Source: Pirellulales bacterium
GTDB taxonomy: Bacteria > Planctomycetota > Planctomycetia > Pirellulales > Thermoguttaceae
Length of the DNA: 33,399 nucleotides
NCBI GenBank assembly: GCA_016929515.1
Contig: JAFGIR010000197.1
Location: forward strand, 1-33,399
Direction of reading: 5' to 3'
The notes beneath the pieces were generated by a model, which saw only the letters and a list, made by a program, of their open reading frames with translations, searched no databases and had not been told where the DNA came from. This document shows, one piece after another, positions 2,946 to 31,545 of the stretch. The stretch's first letter is position 1. Each line of letters starts with the position of its first letter. A program made the translations under genes and the position numbers.

Positions 2946-4463
2946 TCACGCGCGGGCGTCAACAATACGCGCCGTGACGAACATGCCAACCGCGGCCCCC
3001 GCCGTGCATAGAATCACATCCGTAATATCGGGGTAGTGCGGTGGCAAGAACACCTGGGCCATCTCTATCGAAGTGGCCACGCCCGCCGCAACCAGCAGCA
3101 AAACAGCTCGCGCAAGGCGACGTATCTGGCGAGGGACGGGCAGATTCGCCACCGCCAGGGCAGAGAGTGCTCCCAGTGGCATATACAGAAGCAGTTTCTT
3201 CAAAATGTCCGAAATTGCGTTGAATTCGGAACCATGATACATCGCGGCAAACGGAACGGCAAAGAACCCCTGATAGCGCGCCTTGATTTCCTGAGGATCA
3301 TCGATCAGGACATAGGGTGCACAGAACAGGACCCCCAGAAAAACCACGTACACGGCCGCCAACCCCAGATACCACGCCGAACGTCCGGCAGAACGGTTTG
3401 AAGCCGGCCGGCGTTGGTCGTCGGCGACACCCCCTCGCCAGCGACGCATCAACACGACCCCAAGCCAGACGCCAAGGATGCCGCTAATCACGTCGGACGT
3501 GCTCACGTAACGGCTGTAGACAAACAACTGTGCGAATTCGGTGGCCAAGACAAACGCCGCGCCAAGCCAGACGCTCCGCCCAAGCGAACGCACGAGCCGC
3601 TCGGCACGAGTGAACCACGTCGTGGCCAACATGCCAATCGGGACGAAGACGACAACATCGCGAAACAGCCCGAACAGCGATGCAAACCCGAAAGTGAAAT
3701 CCGCAAACGGCACAAGCTCGATTCGGCCCGCCTGATACTTGTCCGTAAGTTCCCCCACGCTAATGGTCAGATCGAGAGGCATGACGGAATAGACCATCAG
3801 TCCGAGAAAATAGAGCTCCAACAGCCAATCGATCTGGTCCTTGGGACGCCGGGCAGTCGTATAGGTGCGTATCCAGTCTGTAAGAGTCTGCCCGATCAAT
3901 AACCATAGGACCGTGCCCAACACGGCTCCGATAGTCTCGGCAAGGATGTCGTTCCGCGAGACCGTGCGAGGCGGGAACCAGAGCTGCGTGAATTCGAGTA
4001 CAAAGCTCATAACGGTCGCGAGTGCAACCACGAGCGGCACGGTGAGAACTCGTCTCCCGACAGCTCGGCGATCGACTACCAGCGTGGCAAGCCAACAGTA
4101 ACTGATGGGGATGAACAAGAGAATATTGGCTACCCAGTCGGCTCGCCGGCCGGCGCCCAACGTCAGGTAGGGTATCTCGCGAAATCGCGTCACCGCGTCG
4201 CCCCACGCCAACGGTGTGAATCGCAGCGGAACCAGTGATCCGTAAATGGCGATGGCCGTGAAAAACAGGGCCAGAAGAAAGTAATGGTAGCGAGAAGGGC
4301 AGCTTGGCCCGGTGATGTCGTGATTCACCGACACTTTGGATCCACGAGTCAATCGCCGCGCGAGGACGTAGACCACGGCCGCGCAAGCACAAGCGAACAG
4401 GCCGACCAAGATGGCCATGGCCCAATCAAAGCTTGTCCCCGCAACCGATACGTCGCCGTACAA
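2946..4463 (-). CDS. Membrane protein with three VanZ-like repeats
   Basis: A 505-residue polytopic membrane protein built from three copies of a VanZ-like unit. Each copy has a hydrophobic (N/D/K)..hhhhPhG/S segment and then a helix with E-x-x-Q and a (R/H)...(S/D)..D(I/V)...G...G segment. Copy 1 has ILLFIPIS near 114-121 and EFTQ at 157-160. Copy 2 has VVVFVPIG near 270-277 and EFAQ at 309-312. Copy 3 has KLLLYMPLG near 423-431 and EMAQ at 467-470. VanZ proteins normally carry one unit. VanZ-family proteins recur in exosortase and polysaccharide loci, but their chemistry is unknown. The TTG at 4463 has a GAGAGGG ribosome-binding site 7 bases upstream; the first ATG (4418) has none at proper distance. 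The gene is divergent from the exosortase gene across a 1-kb spacer. Confidence 0.85.
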   Translation of the reverse strand: MYGDVSVAGTSFDWAMAILVGLFACACAAVVYVLARRLTRGSKVSVNHDITGPSCPSRYHYFLLALFFTAIAIYGSLVPLRFTPLAWGDAVTRFREIPYLTLGAGRRADWVANILLFIPISYCWLATLVVDRRAVGRRVLTVPLVVALATVMSFVLEFTQLWFPPRTVSRNDILAETIGAVLGTVLWLLIGQTLTDWIRTYTTARRPKDQIDWLLELYFLGLMVYSVMPLDLTISVGELTDKYQAGRIELVPFADFTFGFASLFGLFRDVVVFVPIGMLATTWFTRAERLVRSLGRSVWLGAAFVLATEFAQLFVYSRYVSTSDVISGILGVWLGVVLMRRWRGGVADDQRRPASNRSAGRSAWYLGLAAVYVVFLGVLFCAPYVLIDDPQEIKARYQGFFAVPFAAMYHGSEFNAISDILKKLLLYMPLGALSALAVANLPVPRQIRRLARAVLLLVAAGVATSIEMAQVFLPPHYPDITDVILCTAGAAVGMFVTARIVDARA

Positions 4464-4982
4464 CGGATCGCCCTCTCGGTCAGAGATGCTAATGCCTTGT
4501 TGCCCACCCCGCGAGCCTTGGACGCGGCAACCAGTCGGTGGAGATTACTGTTGTCGTCAGTGCCTTTCGGCACAGAGAGGTATTTCGAGGCCCCGTCACC
4601 GCAACATACCCATTATAGCGGGAATCCTGAACCGTCGTCTAAGCAGAACGATCGTCCGGGTTACGCGTCATGTCCGGGGGCAACGTTACTCTCCAGGTTG
4701 CTGCAGACACCCTTCTTCATGACGATTCACTCTCACTCCAACCAGGGCCAATCGGTGTTGCCTGGCACATTGAGGGATTCCACCCACAGCCATGCCAGAG
4801 CACCCGGTTCTTGTCACGGCCGAGCCTGACCCCCAGAATTTGGCCCTTGCCGGCGGGAAAGACTCTTCGTTTCGCTCAAAGCCACAATTACGATGCCCCC
4901 CCGCGGAAGGGACCACTTTGAATGGGAGGCCTTTCGTGGGCGTTGCTCTGGTGCGTTGCATATGCCACGTCGGAACGTAGAG

Positions 4983-5002
4983 ATGTTGCAATCGGTCAAC
5001 AT
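4983..5002. promoter_or_regulatory. Inverted repeat, candidate activator-binding site
   Basis: Perfect 6-base arms ATGTTG and CAACAT are separated by 8 bases. The repeat sits about 90 bases before the -24 element of the sigma54-like promoter, a usual distance for the dimeric site of a bacterial enhancer-binding protein. The role is inference from position and symmetry only. Confidence 0.3.
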
Positions 5003-5091
5003 TCAGTCATGTGATTTGTCGGATAGCGAAAGACGCGAAGCTGTAGCGTTTCTTGAGTTTAGGTTCTGTTGGTTAGGTTTGCGCGATACGT

Positions 5092-5107
5092 TGGCATCCT
5101 AGTTGCG
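5092..5107 (+). promoter_or_regulatory. Candidate sigma54 (-24/-12) promoter
   Basis: The site reads TGGCATCCTAGTTGCG. The GG and GC pairs are exactly 10 bases apart, as sigma54 requires, and it matches the TGGCAC-N5-TTGC consensus at all core positions except one (T for the last C of the -24 box). It points toward the exosortase gene about 355 bases away. Sigma54 with the PrsK/PrsR system is reported to control exosortase-linked genes in some proteobacteria, so the site is plausible, but no activator gene is in the window. Confidence 0.45.
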
Positions 5108-5137
5108 TTCTGAGCGAGCATGGTCGTACCCTGTAAC

Positions 5138-5166
5138 TTGACATTTCGAGGACATTGAATCATGCT
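5138..5166 (+). promoter_or_regulatory. Possible sigma70 promoter with perfect -35
   Basis: A perfect TTGACA at 5138-5143 is followed after 17 bases by CATGCT, which matches the -10 consensus at only 3 of 6 positions. It is an alternative or additional start for the exosortase transcript, with less support than the -24/-12 site just upstream. Confidence 0.25.
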
Positions 5167-5461
5167 GTGGGGATAAGAGGGGGTGGTCCGTCATCGTTTG
5201 GCAGGCCCGTCGTGCCGGGTATTCTTCCGGACGCCTGCGTTACGAAGGGTTGCCACTGTCAACCATGCCTCCTCCCGCCTGAATACCACGGCAAACCGAG
5301 AATGGACTGCGGAGACTTGTCCACGGCTGTGGTTGAGTTCGGAATCTACGTGAACCCAAGTAGGCGATTCGACCCGCGACTTGGGAATGATGATTCGGCC
5401 GACCTCAGGTTTCCATGATTGTCGTGTCGGACAGTTTACCGGTTGGTCTGCATTTCGATAG

Positions 5462-6439
5462 GTGCGAACATTGACTACGCCAGAGATTGACTCGAAATCG
5501 AAGAACACGCTGATCATCAGTTCAAGCATTTTGCTGGTTCTGGTGGTCGTGGTCTACTACCCCGTGCTTTATTGGCTCGTGAAAGCCCACTGGTGGAGCA
5601 ACCCTGACTACATCTACGGTTTCCTCGTGCCCGTCTTCTCCGGTTACCTGCTCTGGGACCGTCGCGACATGCTGAAGCTCAACCAGTTGAACGGAAGCTA
5701 CTGGGGCATTCTGATCATTCTGGTGACTTTTGTGGTCGCGGTTTATGCCGACAGTCAATACAACAAGGTCCTCAAGGGCATGACGATCGTTCCGATGGTC
5801 GGCGGCATGGTCCTGTTGGTCGGAGGTTGGCACGCGATTCAATGGTCGTGGCCGGCCGTCGGCTTTCTTTTCTTCATGTCCCCGCTTCCGGGGCGTTTTG
5901 CCAATCTGCTGAGCGAGGAACTTCAAGCGATCGGTACCTCCGTCAGCGTATTTGTCCTACAGACGATTGGTTTGCCGGCCGTGGCCGAAGGAAATGTCAT
6001 TGTCTTGAGTAATTCGCGTTTGGGGGTTGTTGAAGCTTGCAGTGGAATCCGGATGTTGATGCTGTTTTTCGCCGCGTGTATCGGTACCGCGTTTTATCTT
6101 CGTCATCGTGATCCTCTGACGCGAATTCTAATTGCTCTGAGCGCGCCACCCATCGCCATTATCGCCAACGTTACGCGAATCACGGTTACGGCAATTCTCT
6201 ATGAGAAGGTGAGCCAAGAGTTGGGGGATAAGATTTTTCATGACTTGGCCGGCTGGTTGATGATGCCCATGGCCATCGCCATTCTGTGGCTGGAGACGGC
6301 CCTGCTCGATCGATTGTTTGTTGCTCCCGAACGGGAGGCACCCATCGGGCTGGGCACCACGGCCGGCGTCAGTATTCCAAGAAGCAAAGACCAAACACCC
6401 CCGCTGGGCAACGTACCGCCCGGCAGGCTTGACGGATAG
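5462..6439 (+). CDS. Exosortase (EpsH/Xrt family transpeptidase)
   Basis: An integral membrane cysteine protease/transpeptidase expected to cleave proteins with C-terminal PEP-type sorting signals and pass them to a surface glycan or lipid carrier. The 325-residue protein has about eight hydrophobic segments. It has the family's early YGFLVPVFSGYLLW motif (52-65) and the catalytic triad in order: Cys193 in EACSGIRML, Arg239 in NVTRI, and His260 in FHDLAGW. The short hydrophilic tail after residue 290 carries no extra domain; the EpsI partner is a separate gene at 11113. It may be the planctomycete type sometimes called XrtU, but I cannot confirm the subtype. The start is GTG at 5462; an in-frame TTG at 5471 has a better-spaced ribosome-binding site (AGGTG, 6 bases). 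No substrate with a sorting tail is encoded in the window. Confidence 0.93.
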   Translation: MRTLTTPEIDSKSKNTLIISSSILLVLVVVVYYPVLYWLVKAHWWSNPDYIYGFLVPVFSGYLLWDRRDMLKLNQLNGSYWGILIILVTFVVAVYADSQYNKVLKGMTIVPMVGGMVLLVGGWHAIQWSWPAVGFLFFMSPLPGRFANLLSEELQAIGTSVSVFVLQTIGLPAVAEGNVIVLSNSRLGVVEACSGIRMLMLFFAACIGTAFYLRHRDPLTRILIALSAPPIAIIANVTRITVTAILYEKVSQELGDKIFHDLAGWLMMPMAIAILWLETALLDRLFVAPEREAPIGLGTTAGVSIPRSKDQTPPLGNVPPGRLDG

Positions 6440-6765: not shown

Positions 6766-9018
6766 ATGTCGACCAAAGACGACACATCGCTGGACCATCC
6801 TTCGAACGGTCAGTCGCTGGTGGTGCACCACAGTACGCCGCTGGGCACCAAAGACGCGGATTGGGCGGCCGTGCCTTCCTACGGCCAAGGACACGATCAT
6901 TCGCAGATGAACGCCGCGGTCTACTTTCACGCCGTCCGGCGTCACTGGTTCCTTGGGCTGTTGCTCGGAGTGATCCTCGCTGTCGCGGCTGGCGTGGCTA
7001 CGTGGTTCCTCCTGCCCATCAAATACACGGCAACGTCGTTGATCCAAGTGTCCATGGAGCAACCCAAGCTGCTCAAAGGCGACCCGCGGTTCAATCTGCA
7101 GCGGGAGTATGAGATTTACAAGGACACGCAGTCCCAGTTGGTCAGAAGCCCCCTCGTCTTGATGGCCGCGTTGCGGAAACCGGAGATCGCTTCGCTATCC
7201 ATCTACAAGCGAGAGGAGGTCGACCCGATCACCTGGTTGCAGGATGAGTTGCGCGTCTTTTTTGGCGGCGAAGGCCAGATCATGTCGGTCAGCCTGACCG
7301 ACGACAACAAGGAAGAAGTCGCCAAGGTGGTCCGCGCGGTGGTCGACGCCTATCTCAGCGAAATCGTCGAAAGCGAACGGAGCGAGAAGCACCGCGCTCT
7401 GGCCGACCTCGAGGCGGTGTTGGCCGCCAAGGAACAGGAAATTCGCCAACGACGCACCACCCTGAGACGGTTGGCCGACGAGTTGGGCACGGCCGACCGG
7501 GAAACACTCAACATGCAAATGCAGTTCGCCCTGCAACAGTTGAGCATGTATCGCGGACAACTCGCCCAGGTTCAGATCGACCTGCAGAACTCCAAGTCCG
7601 AATTCGCGGCCAGCCGGAAGGCACTCGAGCGGCTGGAATCGGCGCCGGCAAACACTCTGGAACTCGAACGGCTGAAGTTGCAGGACCCAATCTGTCGCGA
7701 ACTTCAAAAAAAGATCAGCGACTTGCAGGCCGTCGCGAGCCAGGCCGCCGGAAAGGGGCTCCCCGGAAAACCCGGCTCCCTCTCCATCCAATTGGTCGAG
7801 CAAATAAACACGCTTCAAGCAGACCTTCAAGCGAGGCTCGATCACCTCTCCACGATCCTAACGGCAGCCATGCGGAACGAACTCCAGGAAAAAGTCTCCG
7901 ACCTGGAGGTCAGAATTGCCCTGGCACAAGAACTGAAAACAAACCTCGACAGCGAGGTCAGCGCCAAACGCGAGGAATTCGAGAAGATCGGCAAGTCGTC
8001 CGTTGAGTTGGACATGATGCGGACCGAGTTGGAAAATCTCGAGGACGTCACAAGCGGCATCGCGGTGCAACGCGAGACGCTCGAAGTCGAGACCAAGTCG
8101 CCGCCACGAATCCGATTGCATCAGAGGGCCGAGGAACCCATCAGCTACGACAACCCCGAGATGCACGTGGCTCTGACCATTATTGCGGCCATCGCCGGCC
8201 TGATTCTGCCGCTGGTTGGCATTGTCTGGTGGGACGTTCGCAAAGAGCGCATCAATTCGTCGGAAGACGTGGCCAAGGGGCTCGGCCTGCCCGTCATGGG
8301 TTCCGTACCCGTGATTCCCGGTCGAGCCATCAAGCGACTGAATGCTCCAGGCAAGAAGAACCAAGTCTGGAACGTCCGATTGGCTGAGTCGGTCGACGGC
8401 ATTGCGGCCAAATTGCTCCGCAACGCGGCGATCGAGAAGAATCGGGTCGTACTGATTACCAGCGCGGTTAGCGGCGAGGGCAAGACGACACTCGCCACCC
8501 AGGTGGCCATGAGTCTCGCCCGCGCCGGAAAACAAACCGTCCTGGTCGACTTCGATTTGCGTCGCCCGGCCGTTGACAAGGCGTTCCAGTTGCCGTTGTA
8601 TCCAGGCGTCAGCGAAGCCCTTTGCGGCGAGAACGACATCAAGAGCTTGCCGCAAACGACCGGACTTCCCAATCTGGAAGTGGTGACCGCCGGGCGATGC
8701 GATCGGCATGCTCTGCAATCGCTGGCCAACGGCAACGACAAGCAACTCTTCGAGGAGCTTCGCGAGAAGTACGAATTCGTGATTGTCGACGGTAGCCCGA
8801 TCTTGCCCGTGGCCGATTCGCGATACGTCAGCCAACATGTCGATTCGGTAGTGCTTTCGGTCTTCCGTGACTATAGCCGCGTTCCAAAGGTGACCGCGGC
8901 ATGCGAAATCCTCGAGGCTTTTGGCGTCCGCGACATTGAAGCCGTGGTAACCAGTTCGAGCGAGGACGGATACGGGGTGATCGACATGGTCGCCCAGAAG
9001 GCACCCGTCCCCACTTAA
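6766..9018 (+). CDS. wzc: Wzc-like polysaccharide co-polymerase with BY-kinase domain
   Basis: An inner-membrane regulator of polymer chain length and export that should work with the Wza-type lipoprotein. The 750 residues comprise a polar N-terminal leader (1-55), transmembrane segment 1 (about 61-83), a Wzz-type periplasmic region with long coiled coils (about 195-435), transmembrane segment 2 (about 467-489) and a cytoplasmic bacterial tyrosine-kinase domain. The ATPase motifs are intact: Walker A SAVSGEGKTT at 566-575, Walker A' VLVDFDLRRP at 592-601, and Walker B FVIVDG at 671-676. The C-terminus has only one tyrosine (Tyr736) in place of the usual tyrosine cluster, so control by autophosphorylation may be reduced or different. 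The gene has a strong ribosome-binding site and is followed by a terminator hairpin. Confidence 0.93.
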   Translation: MSTKDDTSLDHPSNGQSLVVHHSTPLGTKDADWAAVPSYGQGHDHSQMNAAVYFHAVRRHWFLGLLLGVILAVAAGVATWFLLPIKYTATSLIQVSMEQPKLLKGDPRFNLQREYEIYKDTQSQLVRSPLVLMAALRKPEIASLSIYKREEVDPITWLQDELRVFFGGEGQIMSVSLTDDNKEEVAKVVRAVVDAYLSEIVESERSEKHRALADLEAVLAAKEQEIRQRRTTLRRLADELGTADRETLNMQMQFALQQLSMYRGQLAQVQIDLQNSKSEFAASRKALERLESAPANTLELERLKLQDPICRELQKKISDLQAVASQAAGKGLPGKPGSLSIQLVEQINTLQADLQARLDHLSTILTAAMRNELQEKVSDLEVRIALAQELKTNLDSEVSAKREEFEKIGKSSVELDMMRTELENLEDVTSGIAVQRETLEVETKSPPRIRLHQRAEEPISYDNPEMHVALTIIAAIAGLILPLVGIVWWDVRKERINSSEDVAKGLGLPVMGSVPVIPGRAIKRLNAPGKKNQVWNVRLAESVDGIAAKLLRNAAIEKNRVVLITSAVSGEGKTTLATQVAMSLARAGKQTVLVDFDLRRPAVDKAFQLPLYPGVSEALCGENDIKSLPQTTGLPNLEVVTAGRCDRHALQSLANGNDKQLFEELREKYEFVIVDGSPILPVADSRYVSQHVDSVVLSVFRDYSRVPKVTAACEILEAFGVRDIEAVVTSSSEDGYGVIDMVAQKAPVPT

Positions 9019-11112: not shown

Positions 11113-11811
11113 ATGAGGGTATTTTCTGATATGAATAATGTTACGACAAAGATCATTGTCGCCTTTGTACTGCTCGCCGTGTTCGCGGGCGGCACTTTTT
11201 ACATCTACGGCAAGCTCGGCGTACTCAAGAGTGCCGAAATGCCATGCAAGCAACTTGCCCAAATTCCCAAGGAGTTGGGATCCTGGAAAGGACAAGACCG
11301 GCCGACCGAGGATCGCGTCTTTCGGGCAATTGGTGCCGACAATGTGCTCAACCGCACGTACACCAATTTGGCCGGCAAGGAAATCACCCTCCACGCGGCC
11401 GTTCGCAGCGACTTCCCAGGCATTCTGCCACATACGCCGATGGTCTGTTATCCGTCCGCCGGTTGGATCGAGAAGAAGGCAAGCGAAGAGAAGTTGGAAA
11501 TGCCGGGCCTCCCGCCGGTAGACGCGATGTTCGCCACGTTCGAGATGGAAGGCCGACGGACCATGATCCTCTTCTGGTATCAATTCGGCGAACCCACCTT
11601 CCACACGAGCGAAGGATTCGACGAAGCCAAACAGAAGCTCCGTCACTACGAGAAATGGCCTTGTCTCATCAAGGTCCTTCTCCAAACAGACATGAATAAT
11701 AGCGAACAGGCAAAGAAACGGCTCCTTGATTTCGCGTCACACCTCTACCCGTGGACCAGCCAGATGCAATATGGCGACGCCGGGCCACCGCCCACCGACC
11801 CCGCCGACTAA
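11113..11811 (+). CDS. epsI: EpsI family exosortase-associated protein
   Basis: A single-pass periplasmic protein of the EpsI family, which occurs with exosortases as a separate gene or as a fused C-terminal domain. Its biochemical role is not established. The 232 residues have one N-terminal membrane anchor (about 13-32) and then the conserved block HTPMVCYPSAGW (107-118, Cys112), followed by WYQFG (155-159) and a C-terminal helical part with KWPCLIKVLLQT (181-192). It lies 5 kb from the exosortase with wzc and wecA between them. The ATG at 11113 is the outermost start; the ATG at 11131 has a GAGGG upstream and is an alternative. Its 3' end (11652-11740) has a decayed copy at 21636-21730. 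Confidence 0.85.
   Translation: MRVFSDMNNVTTKIIVAFVLLAVFAGGTFYIYGKLGVLKSAEMPCKQLAQIPKELGSWKGQDRPTEDRVFRAIGADNVLNRTYTNLAGKEITLHAAVRSDFPGILPHTPMVCYPSAGWIEKKASEEKLEMPGLPPVDAMFATFEMEGRRTMILFWYQFGEPTFHTSEGFDEAKQKLRHYEKWPCLIKVLLQTDMNNSEQAKKRLLDFASHLYPWTSQMQYGDAGPPPTDPAD
11652..11740 (+). repeat. epsI 3'-end segment, left copy of a diverged direct repeat
   Basis: This part of epsI aligns with 21636-21730. It includes the 11-base identity GTCCTTCTCCA (11674-11684 and 21658-21668) and a 20-base identity at 11716-11735 and 21701-21720. The first 33 bases match at 24 positions. The two copies are in the same orientation and bracket about 10 kb of polysaccharide genes. Confidence 0.75.
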
Positions 11812-30399: not shown

Positions 30400-31545
30400 A
30401 TGAAAGCTCTGTTCAACGGTGCTTGTCTTTTTCAAGGCGGCGCTCTGACCGTAGCGGCCTCCTTCATGCTGCAAGCGTTTCGCGATCGAAGCGACCTTCA
30501 GTGGTCCTTTATCGTTTCGCGCGCGATCGTCGACGAGTTGAAGCGACTCGATGCCGACCTCCCGCCGGACCTGAACGTGTTCGAGGTGTCTCCGGCTCGG
30601 AATCGCAAGGCCCGTGCCAAGTTGCGAGCACTGGAAGCAACCCTTCAACCGGACGTCGTCTTCACTCTGTTCAGCCCTGCCTACGTGCGATTCCAAGCGC
30701 CGCACCTCATGGGCTGCGGCAACAGTTGGGTAACCAATCCGACCTGGGCCGCCTATCGGACCATGCGGTTTCCCCTCGGCACGGCACACTGGTTTCTCCT
30801 GACCATGTACCAATCGCAATGGATGTCTCTTGCCGACGCTTGGGTAACCCAGACCGAAACCGTACGCCAAGGGCTTCACCGGCGATTCGGATTTCCGCTC
30901 GACCGGATCGACGTTGTTTCGAATACGTGCGACGACAACTACCTGCGGAACCAGGCCGTCCAGCCCTTTCCGCGGCGGGACACCAAGATCCGCTTGTTGT
31001 GTTTCGCCGCGGCCTACGCTCACAAAAACCCCATGATCGCGCCTCGCGTGGCCAAGCGTCTGGAAAAACTCGACCCTTCGCTCGATTTTGAATTCGTCTT
31101 GACGCTACCCGAGCAAAGTGACGTCTACCGCCGGGTTCGAAAACTGTCCGATTCGCTGGGCGTCGCCCAGCGAATCGCGAATCTGGGTCCTGTTCCACTG
31201 GCCGACGGCCCCGAACTCTACCGAAGTTGCCACGTCTCCTTCTTGCCCACGTTATTGGAGAGCTTCAGCGCGACGTACCCCGAGTCGATGGCCATGGGGC
31301 TACCGATCGTTACCTCCGATCTGGGGTTCGCTCGTGACGTGTGTCGTAACGCCGCTCTTTACTACGACTACTGGGACGCCAATGCCGCCGCGGAGTGCAT
31401 TCTGAAACTGCTGACCGACCGTGAACTCTGGCAGTCGCAAATCGAGCGAGGAAAGGCCGTGCTCGCGGAACTTCCGAATCCGAGTGAACGCTATGACCAA
31501 TACGCCGAGTGCGTGCGAAAGCTGGCCGAGCGGGGCCGGCGATAA
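30400..31545 (+). CDS. Glycosyltransferase, GT4 family
   Basis: GT-B fold glycosyltransferase of 381 residues. The N-terminal half opens with a glycine-rich GACLFQGGALTVAASFML, a nucleotide-sugar enzyme-like loop. The C-terminal half has LLCFAAAYAHKNPMIAPRVAKRL, then RIANLGPVPLADGPELYRSCHV and FLPTLLESFSATYPESMAMGLPI with the donor-site E-x7-E pair, then NAALYYDYWDANA. An AAGG ribosome-binding site lies about 11 bases before the ATG. It follows the Wzy/ligase gene by 12 bases and is the last plus-strand gene. The transferred sugar is unknown. Confidence 0.88.
   Translation: MKALFNGACLFQGGALTVAASFMLQAFRDRSDLQWSFIVSRAIVDELKRLDADLPPDLNVFEVSPARNRKARAKLRALEATLQPDVVFTLFSPAYVRFQAPHLMGCGNSWVTNPTWAAYRTMRFPLGTAHWFLLTMYQSQWMSLADAWVTQTETVRQGLHRRFGFPLDRIDVVSNTCDDNYLRNQAVQPFPRRDTKIRLLCFAAAYAHKNPMIAPRVAKRLEKLDPSLDFEFVLTLPEQSDVYRRVRKLSDSLGVAQRIANLGPVPLADGPELYRSCHVSFLPTLLESFSATYPESMAMGLPIVTSDLGFARDVCRNAALYYDYWDANAAAECILKLLTDRELWQSQIERGKAVLAELPNPSERYDQYAECVRKLAERGRR

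Follow-up and report, generated by a model that had tools for sequence, protein, structure and literature searches.

A putative sigma54 promoter and upstream inverted repeat shared by exosortase and polysaccharide-assembly genes in Pirellulales-type planctomycetes

Introduction

In Proteobacteria, 99 of 167 PEP-CTERM genes are preceded by a sigma54 promoter and a motif ending in TTTACA; the mean distance between motif and promoter is 63 nt, and among the species discussed the motif is confined to Proteobacteria (Haft et al., 2006, PMC1569441). The PEP-CTERM substrate gene pepA of Aquincola tertiaricarbonis is described as RpoN-dependent, with a sigma54 promoter (TGGCAC ... CTGCTT) and a determined transcription start (PMC9850573). 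In Desulfovibrio vulgaris, the plasmid-encoded response regulator DVUA0057 enriched predicted PEP-CTERM targets in a DNA-binding assay (PMC3333781). More broadly, sigma54 control of polysaccharide and envelope genes is presented as a general theme of the bacterial exterior (PMC3162934, PMC12316311); the word 'exosortase' appears in the main text of neither of these two papers, and their passages on this theme do not feature a planctomycete polysaccharide regulon. In the open-access literature we found no report of a sigma54 regulon of exosortase and polysaccharide genes in planctomycetes, and the study of sigma54 in Pirellula by Studholme and Dixon (2004) could overlap with the present one.

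The locus analysed here lies upstream of an exosortase gene in a Pirellulales bacterium. It resembles the PrsK/PrsR regulon (PMC1569441) in its putative sigma54 promoter, in the activator motif proposed upstream of it and in the link of both to an exosortase/polysaccharide system. The two differ in that the putative planctomycete motif is GTTGC-N6-GCAAC, is mostly 80-110 nt away from the promoter, and stands before exosortase and polysaccharide genes rather than PEP-CTERM genes. With pepA the locus has in common a sigma54 promoter in an exosortase-linked system, but the pepA promoter, as described, belongs to a proteobacterium and serves a gene for a PEP-CTERM substrate (PMC9850573). DVUA0057 resembles it as a response regulator with links to polysaccharide synthesis and to PEP-CTERM targets, and differs in being plasmid-encoded and in those PEP-CTERM targets (PMC3333781). 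Sigma54 acting over polysaccharide and envelope genes is what the locus would share with the wider exterior theme (PMC3162934, PMC12316311).

Results

The window, meaning the whole stretch of 33,399 nucleotides that was analysed, is contig C329 of a 4.6-Mb genome in 503 contigs that is 92.3% complete. Within it, 998 bp of intergenic DNA (4464-5461) separate a VanZ-like gene on the minus strand (2946-4463), the 5' neighbour, from the exosortase gene on the plus strand (5462-6439, predicted GTG start as listed). The identity of the exosortase was confirmed by profile search (TIGR02602, 147 bits, cut-off 105.55). On its 3' side, on the same strand, are a chain-length determinant/tyrosine autokinase-like gene (6766-9018), whose matches to TIGR03018 (108.7 bits) and TIGR01007 (103.4 bits) are both below cut-off, and a gene for an EpsI-family exosortase-associated protein (11113-11811; TIGR02914, 61.4 bits, cut-off 42.8). 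A search of positions 4464-5700, which include the predicted leader, gave no Rfam match at E up to 1.

Sigma54 promoters follow the consensus TGGCAC-N5-TTGC, with 10 bases between the GG of the -24 box and the GC of the -12 box. A putative promoter of this type, TGGCATCCTAGTTGCG, lies on the plus strand at 5092-5107 and is the sole match in the window with three or fewer mismatches (0.27 expected). The sequence-only reading had assigned a -24/-12 geometry to this site and an inverted repeat, ATGTTG-N8-CAACAT, to the region upstream, and both are there as described. In TTGGCATCCTAGTTGC (5091-5106), the GG-N10-GC spacing is exact and preceded by a T, and the one departure noted from the consensus is a T in place of C after TGGCA. 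The repeat, ATGTTGCAATCGGTCAACAT at 4983-5002 (no strand), is the only exact match in the window, in which four matches with up to two mismatches occur versus 0.98 expected; it is a putative site for an enhancer-binding protein, has YGTTGC-N6-GCAACR as its family consensus and ends 89 bases from the -24 box. Two plus-strand copies of GCGTTGC (4940-4946 and 4953-4959) are located directly upstream of it.

Of 3000 simulated regions of 998 bp, 3.4% held a forward site scoring at least as high as that of the window, and none held the exact 12-base repeat or the composite of repeat and promoter. The core TGGC-N7-TTGC is present in 448 copies in the 4.6-Mb genome, versus 291 for the reversed pattern. 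The window itself holds a higher-scoring -24/-12 match, TGGCACGGGCCTTGC on the minus strand at 30605-30619 (16.2 versus 12.4 for the exosortase site), which falls inside the frame of a listed plus-strand open reading frame and is probably due to chance, a caution against promoter scores taken from single sites. Judged as sequence, the promoter match in the window is by itself weak and not convincing; it is the comparative data that convince. Because the single site is modest relative to chance, related sequences were compared.

Of 99 genomes, the source genome included, 80 have exosortase homologs. The upstream set comprised 71 loci, from which four without a recognised frame (L014, L030, L179, L207) and two with short upstream sequence (L012, L013) were left out, giving 65 regions that include those of the window gene and its paralog. 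With a weight matrix whose frequencies were approximated from the Barrios consensus, forward sites scoring 12 or more were present in 20 of the 65, against 2 on the reverse strand and 1 and 2 for the reversed matrix on the two strands. These 20 regions span 14 genera. The window exosortase and its six closest orthologs all have the site, and TTGGCA-N6-TTGC is invariant across the seven aligned regions, which represent five genera. Also invariant in all seven are CTTGACA and CATG of a second element further downstream (see below), and the remaining invariant columns are scattered. A set of named relatives (70 usable of 77 loci) gave 8 forward sites versus 4, 2 and 4 in controls and lends no independent support, because all 8 positives are contigs already used.

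The site is missing from 45 of the 65 regions. Among these are fairly close homologs (L009, L010, L011, L016, L017), as well as the second exosortase of the source genome, on contig C197, and six genes like it in relatives (L162, L195, L199, L200, L204, L205, L206); an eighth paralog of this type, L207, was left out of the count. Since several fairly close homologs are without it, the putative sigma54 site is a trait of one clade and no rule for exosortases.

The repeat is conserved in part of the same clade. Of 4,096 combinations of inverted 4-mer and gap, GTTG-N8-CAAC alone occurs in at least three of the seven aligned regions. It is present in four of them (the window, L003, L004 and L007), 104-107 bp upstream of the -24 box; one further region has GTTG...CAAC only with an 11-base gap, and none was found in the other two. 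L031 and L170, from another genus, have GTTG-N8-CAAC at -149. A further conserved block, GAGTTTAGG on the plus strand at 5055-5063, lies about 35 bp 5' of the -24 box; in the seven aligned sequences the conservation is around TTTAGG / GTTAC, TTA is invariant in all seven, and GTTTAG is found at -35 in three.

Where else the pair of repeat and promoter occurs was examined in the 99 genomes with a loose pattern, GTTG-N8-CAAC followed after 80-110 bases by TGGC-N7-TTGC. This gave 83 matches, and its reversed control 23. Base composition accounts for part of the surplus; in addition, five of the 83 matches are one near-identical stretch, which is coding in the two cases examined. The source genome has the loose pattern at two places, the window and contig C360; on the latter it is followed by a chain-length-like gene and a sugar transferase gene.

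A strict subset of 24 of the 83 matches has the perfect palindrome GTTGC-N6-GCAAC. One of these precedes an exosortase gene (G039), one lies within a coding frame (G061), and the other 22 were examined. The genes that follow encode chain-length-determinant-like proteins (8), GNAT acetyltransferases (5), members of one unnamed family (5) and one other protein; at the remaining three sites, the downstream gene is absent or ambiguous. The eight chain-length-determinant-like proteins form one family (34-70% pairwise identity), of which two exceed the Pfam Wzz cut-off (L251, L252) and the others have weaker Wzz, GNVR or TIGR03007/TIGR03017 matches. The five GNAT proteins match PF13480 at or above cut-off. 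Neighbouring genes encode an O-antigen ligase-like protein (L246; L252, on the opposite strand; L262), a WecG-type transferase (L262, a loose match) and a sugar transferase (L238, source genome). At two order-level relatives with a loose repeat (L258, L259), the pair precedes the gene directly 3' of the exosortase; the two proteins are 81% identical, and TIGR01007 identifies that of L259 as a tyrosine autokinase (114.4 bits, cut-off 108.05).

Positions left free by the search pattern also fit a sigma54 promoter. Among the 21 strict sites that could be counted, one of the 22 being too near a contig end, A occupies position 5 in 18 and C or T position 6 in 19, as in the consensus, and a purine directly follows the repeat in 22 of 22. 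TTGACA was found within 90 bp downstream of none of the 22 (one shortened by a contig end), and the repeat with its -24/-12 sequence therefore appears as a unit of its own. At the control spacing of 15-45 bases, the strict pattern gave 7 matches versus 9 for the reversed form, six of those nine in one genome. One of the seven (G018) precedes a gene that reads as chain-length-like from its sequence, so shorter spacings occur and the spacing is not absolute. Few genomes of the phylum as a whole have the strict pattern (12 of 392, versus 2 control matches), and most downstream genes in this wider set are not recognisable as polysaccharide genes.

Several further features of these sites were noted. 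At L251 and L246, the GTTGC-N6-GCAAC repeat occurs twice before the chain-length-like gene, the copies lying 21 and 33 bp from each other. The unnamed family (L240, L241, L243, L253, L254; L281 is similar) consists of proteins of about 280-300 residues that are 31-51% identical and start with MHARELVELA or similar; they gave no match in Pfam (L240, L241, L253, L254), NCBIfam (L241, L254) or PADLOC (L241, L253). At L451 (G003:C298), another of the seven matches at the control spacing, a strict repeat with short spacing to a -24/-12 site lies 149 bp before a frame that reads as chaperonin-like from its sequence, and within another open frame. At L283, from the class-level relative G466, a strict repeat with -24/-12 sequence lies 73 bp upstream of a gene that matches anti-sigma-factor antagonists below cut-off.

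The second conserved promoter-like element, which had been missed in the sequence-only reading, lies on the plus strand at 5137-5167, 30 bp downstream of the putative sigma54 site. It has the sigma70-like form CTTGACATTT-N8-TTGAATCATGCTG (TTGACA-N17-CATGCT; full sequence CTTGACATTTCGAGGACATTGAATCATGCTG). The element is present in all seven aligned regions (L002-L008, with L002 the window and CATGAT in L006), starting 27-30 bp after the sigma54 site, and in L021, L025 and L026 (TTGACT in L026), in which the order of the two is reversed. The reversed order fits two independent promoters, as far as sequence can tell. The exact -35/-10 pattern had 24 matches in 60 genomes versus 14 for the reversed control; the extended form accounts for six of the 24, each of them at an exosortase locus, and TTGACAWTT is absent from the remaining 18. 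A general promoter type was rejected on these counts, the extended form being found at exosortase loci only. Conservation of the spacer end TTGAATCATGCTG exceeds what a plain promoter requires, and a dedicated regulator may therefore bind there.

These observations bear on the strongest alternative, namely that the exosortase gene is read from the sigma70-like promoter and that the TTGGCA-N6-TTGC block and the repeat are sites of ordinary regulators. In its favour, the sigma70-like element equals or exceeds the -24/-12 sequence in conservation across the seven regions and keeps its distance of 27-30 bp from it. This alternative is nevertheless unlikely, given that the repeat and -24/-12 sequence precede polysaccharide genes with no TTGACA nearby, that the block fits the sigma54 consensus even at free positions, and that the two elements swap order in L021, L025 and L026.

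Sorting-signal genes had been expected to share the promoter. The source genome has 82 PEP-CTERM places by TIGR02595; our own pattern yielded 74 frames, of which seven are open at the 5' end and 67 were counted, and a few of the 82 places, mostly short frames, lie outside this set. A promoter score of at least 12 was reached upstream of 1 of the 67, as in the controls (1, 4 and 1), the repeat upstream of 1 and the sigma70-like element upstream of none. PEP-CTERM genes were thus rejected as members of the regulon, and it is the polysaccharide-assembly genes that share the promoter instead. The analogy with PrsK/PrsR that the earlier reading had drawn fared no better. The best matches to the PrsR family (TIGR02915, 401.8 bits versus a cut-off of 502.6) and the PrsK family (TIGR02916, 100.5 versus 300) in this 92.3% complete genome fall below cut-off, and neither TTTACA nor TGTAAA occurs in 4464-5461. 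Membership in that regulon was rejected on the same three grounds: family scores, missing TTTACA and PEP-CTERM genes without the promoter. A planctomycete branch of the proteobacterial PEP-CTERM regulon would share its sigma factor and biology, and receiver/AAA+/Fis proteins like PrsR do exist in the source genome, with PrsR-like proteins encoded on contigs C330 and C4, yet such a branch is very improbable in view of those scores, the different activator motif, the PEP-CTERM substrates left outside and the restriction of the TTTACA motif to Proteobacteria among the species that Haft et al. discuss in those passages (PMC1569441). Chance resemblance within a long intergenic region would suffice for the promoter match alone, at 3.4% per 998-bp region and with a better match inside a coding frame of the window, but it is scarcely credible against conservation across genera, co-occurrence with the repeat and the class of the genes that follow.

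The source genome has the factor that such a promoter would need. A gene for RpoN, whose presence had been named as a check, was found (PF04552, 217.7 bits) as a 502-residue frame containing ARRTVTKYRK, which we take to be the RpoN box, and at least seven proteins with a Sigma54_activat domain are encoded. Together with the conservation across genera, these genes support the proposal that a planctomycete exosortase gene is preceded by a sigma54 promoter and, further upstream, an activator site.

No activator gene lies beside the regulon loci in the stretches examined. Activator profiling covered two genes. The C476 protein has AAA+ and Fis-type HTH domains and no receiver; its orthologs are 62-83% identical. 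Of 19 genomes tested in the regulon/exosortase group, the source genome included, 17 have the gene, and G002 (69% complete) and G089 lack it. In several genomes this gene (L038, L386) and its orthologs adjoin a long same-strand gene, whose product has no Pfam match in the source genome. Orthologs of the C69 response regulator are 59-85% identical, and the gene is present in 22 of 23 genomes, with G058 as the exception. In genomes without exosortase matches, the C476-type gene was found in 0 of 5 and the C69-type in 0 of 6; such genomes have fewer activator matches overall, which makes the profiles weak evidence. G040, with no exosortase match, has both genes. On these profiles, which fit both proteins, the activator of GTTGC-N6-GCAAC could be of the C476 or the C69 type.

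Discussion

The conservation of the -24/-12 sequence, its pairing with the repeat, the classes of genes that follow the pair and the presence of rpoN point to a sigma54 regulon that would join exosortase and exopolysaccharide genes, in which activator binding, transcription and the activator's identity are inferred. Very probably, the sequence at 5092-5107 is a true sigma54 promoter serving the exosortase gene, with its activator site at 4983-5002, the gene being switched together with polysaccharide genes and the second promoter probably serving a basal level. Because the same site and promoter stand before polysaccharide-assembly genes, it is with these, rather than with PEP-CTERM substrates, that the exosortase gene would be switched.

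At sigma54 promoters, an activator bound upstream loops over to the polymerase and opens the closed complex with ATP. At the exosortase promoter, sigma54 RNA polymerase would wait as a closed complex at 5092-5107, to be opened in this ATP-dependent way by an activator that loops over from 4983-5002, some 90 bp upstream. The predicted start lies near 5118-5119, leaving a leader of about 340 nt. The exosortase and polysaccharide-assembly genes would be switched on together, with the PEP-CTERM substrates set apart, and the sigma70-like promoter 30 bp downstream (5137-5167) would probably supply a basal level of transcription.

A broader proposal, in which our confidence is about evenly balanced, is that Pirellulales-type planctomycetes evolved a sigma54 matrix switch of their own, apart from PrsR. 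Perhaps the C476 protein recognises YGTTGC-N6-GCAACR and activates the exosortase gene jointly with polysaccharide-assembly genes, leaving out the PEP-CTERM genes, so that the sorting machinery would be the regulated step.

In Proteobacteria, many exosortase substrates are under sigma54 and PrsR; here, in another phylum, sigma54 appears to be tied through a different motif to the sorting enzyme and polysaccharide assembly. The motif offers a means of listing matrix genes in poorly studied bacteria, and it comes with two specific candidate activator genes that can be tested. If the proposal is true, there are at least two designs by which sigma54 governs matrix building, and they differ in their control points.
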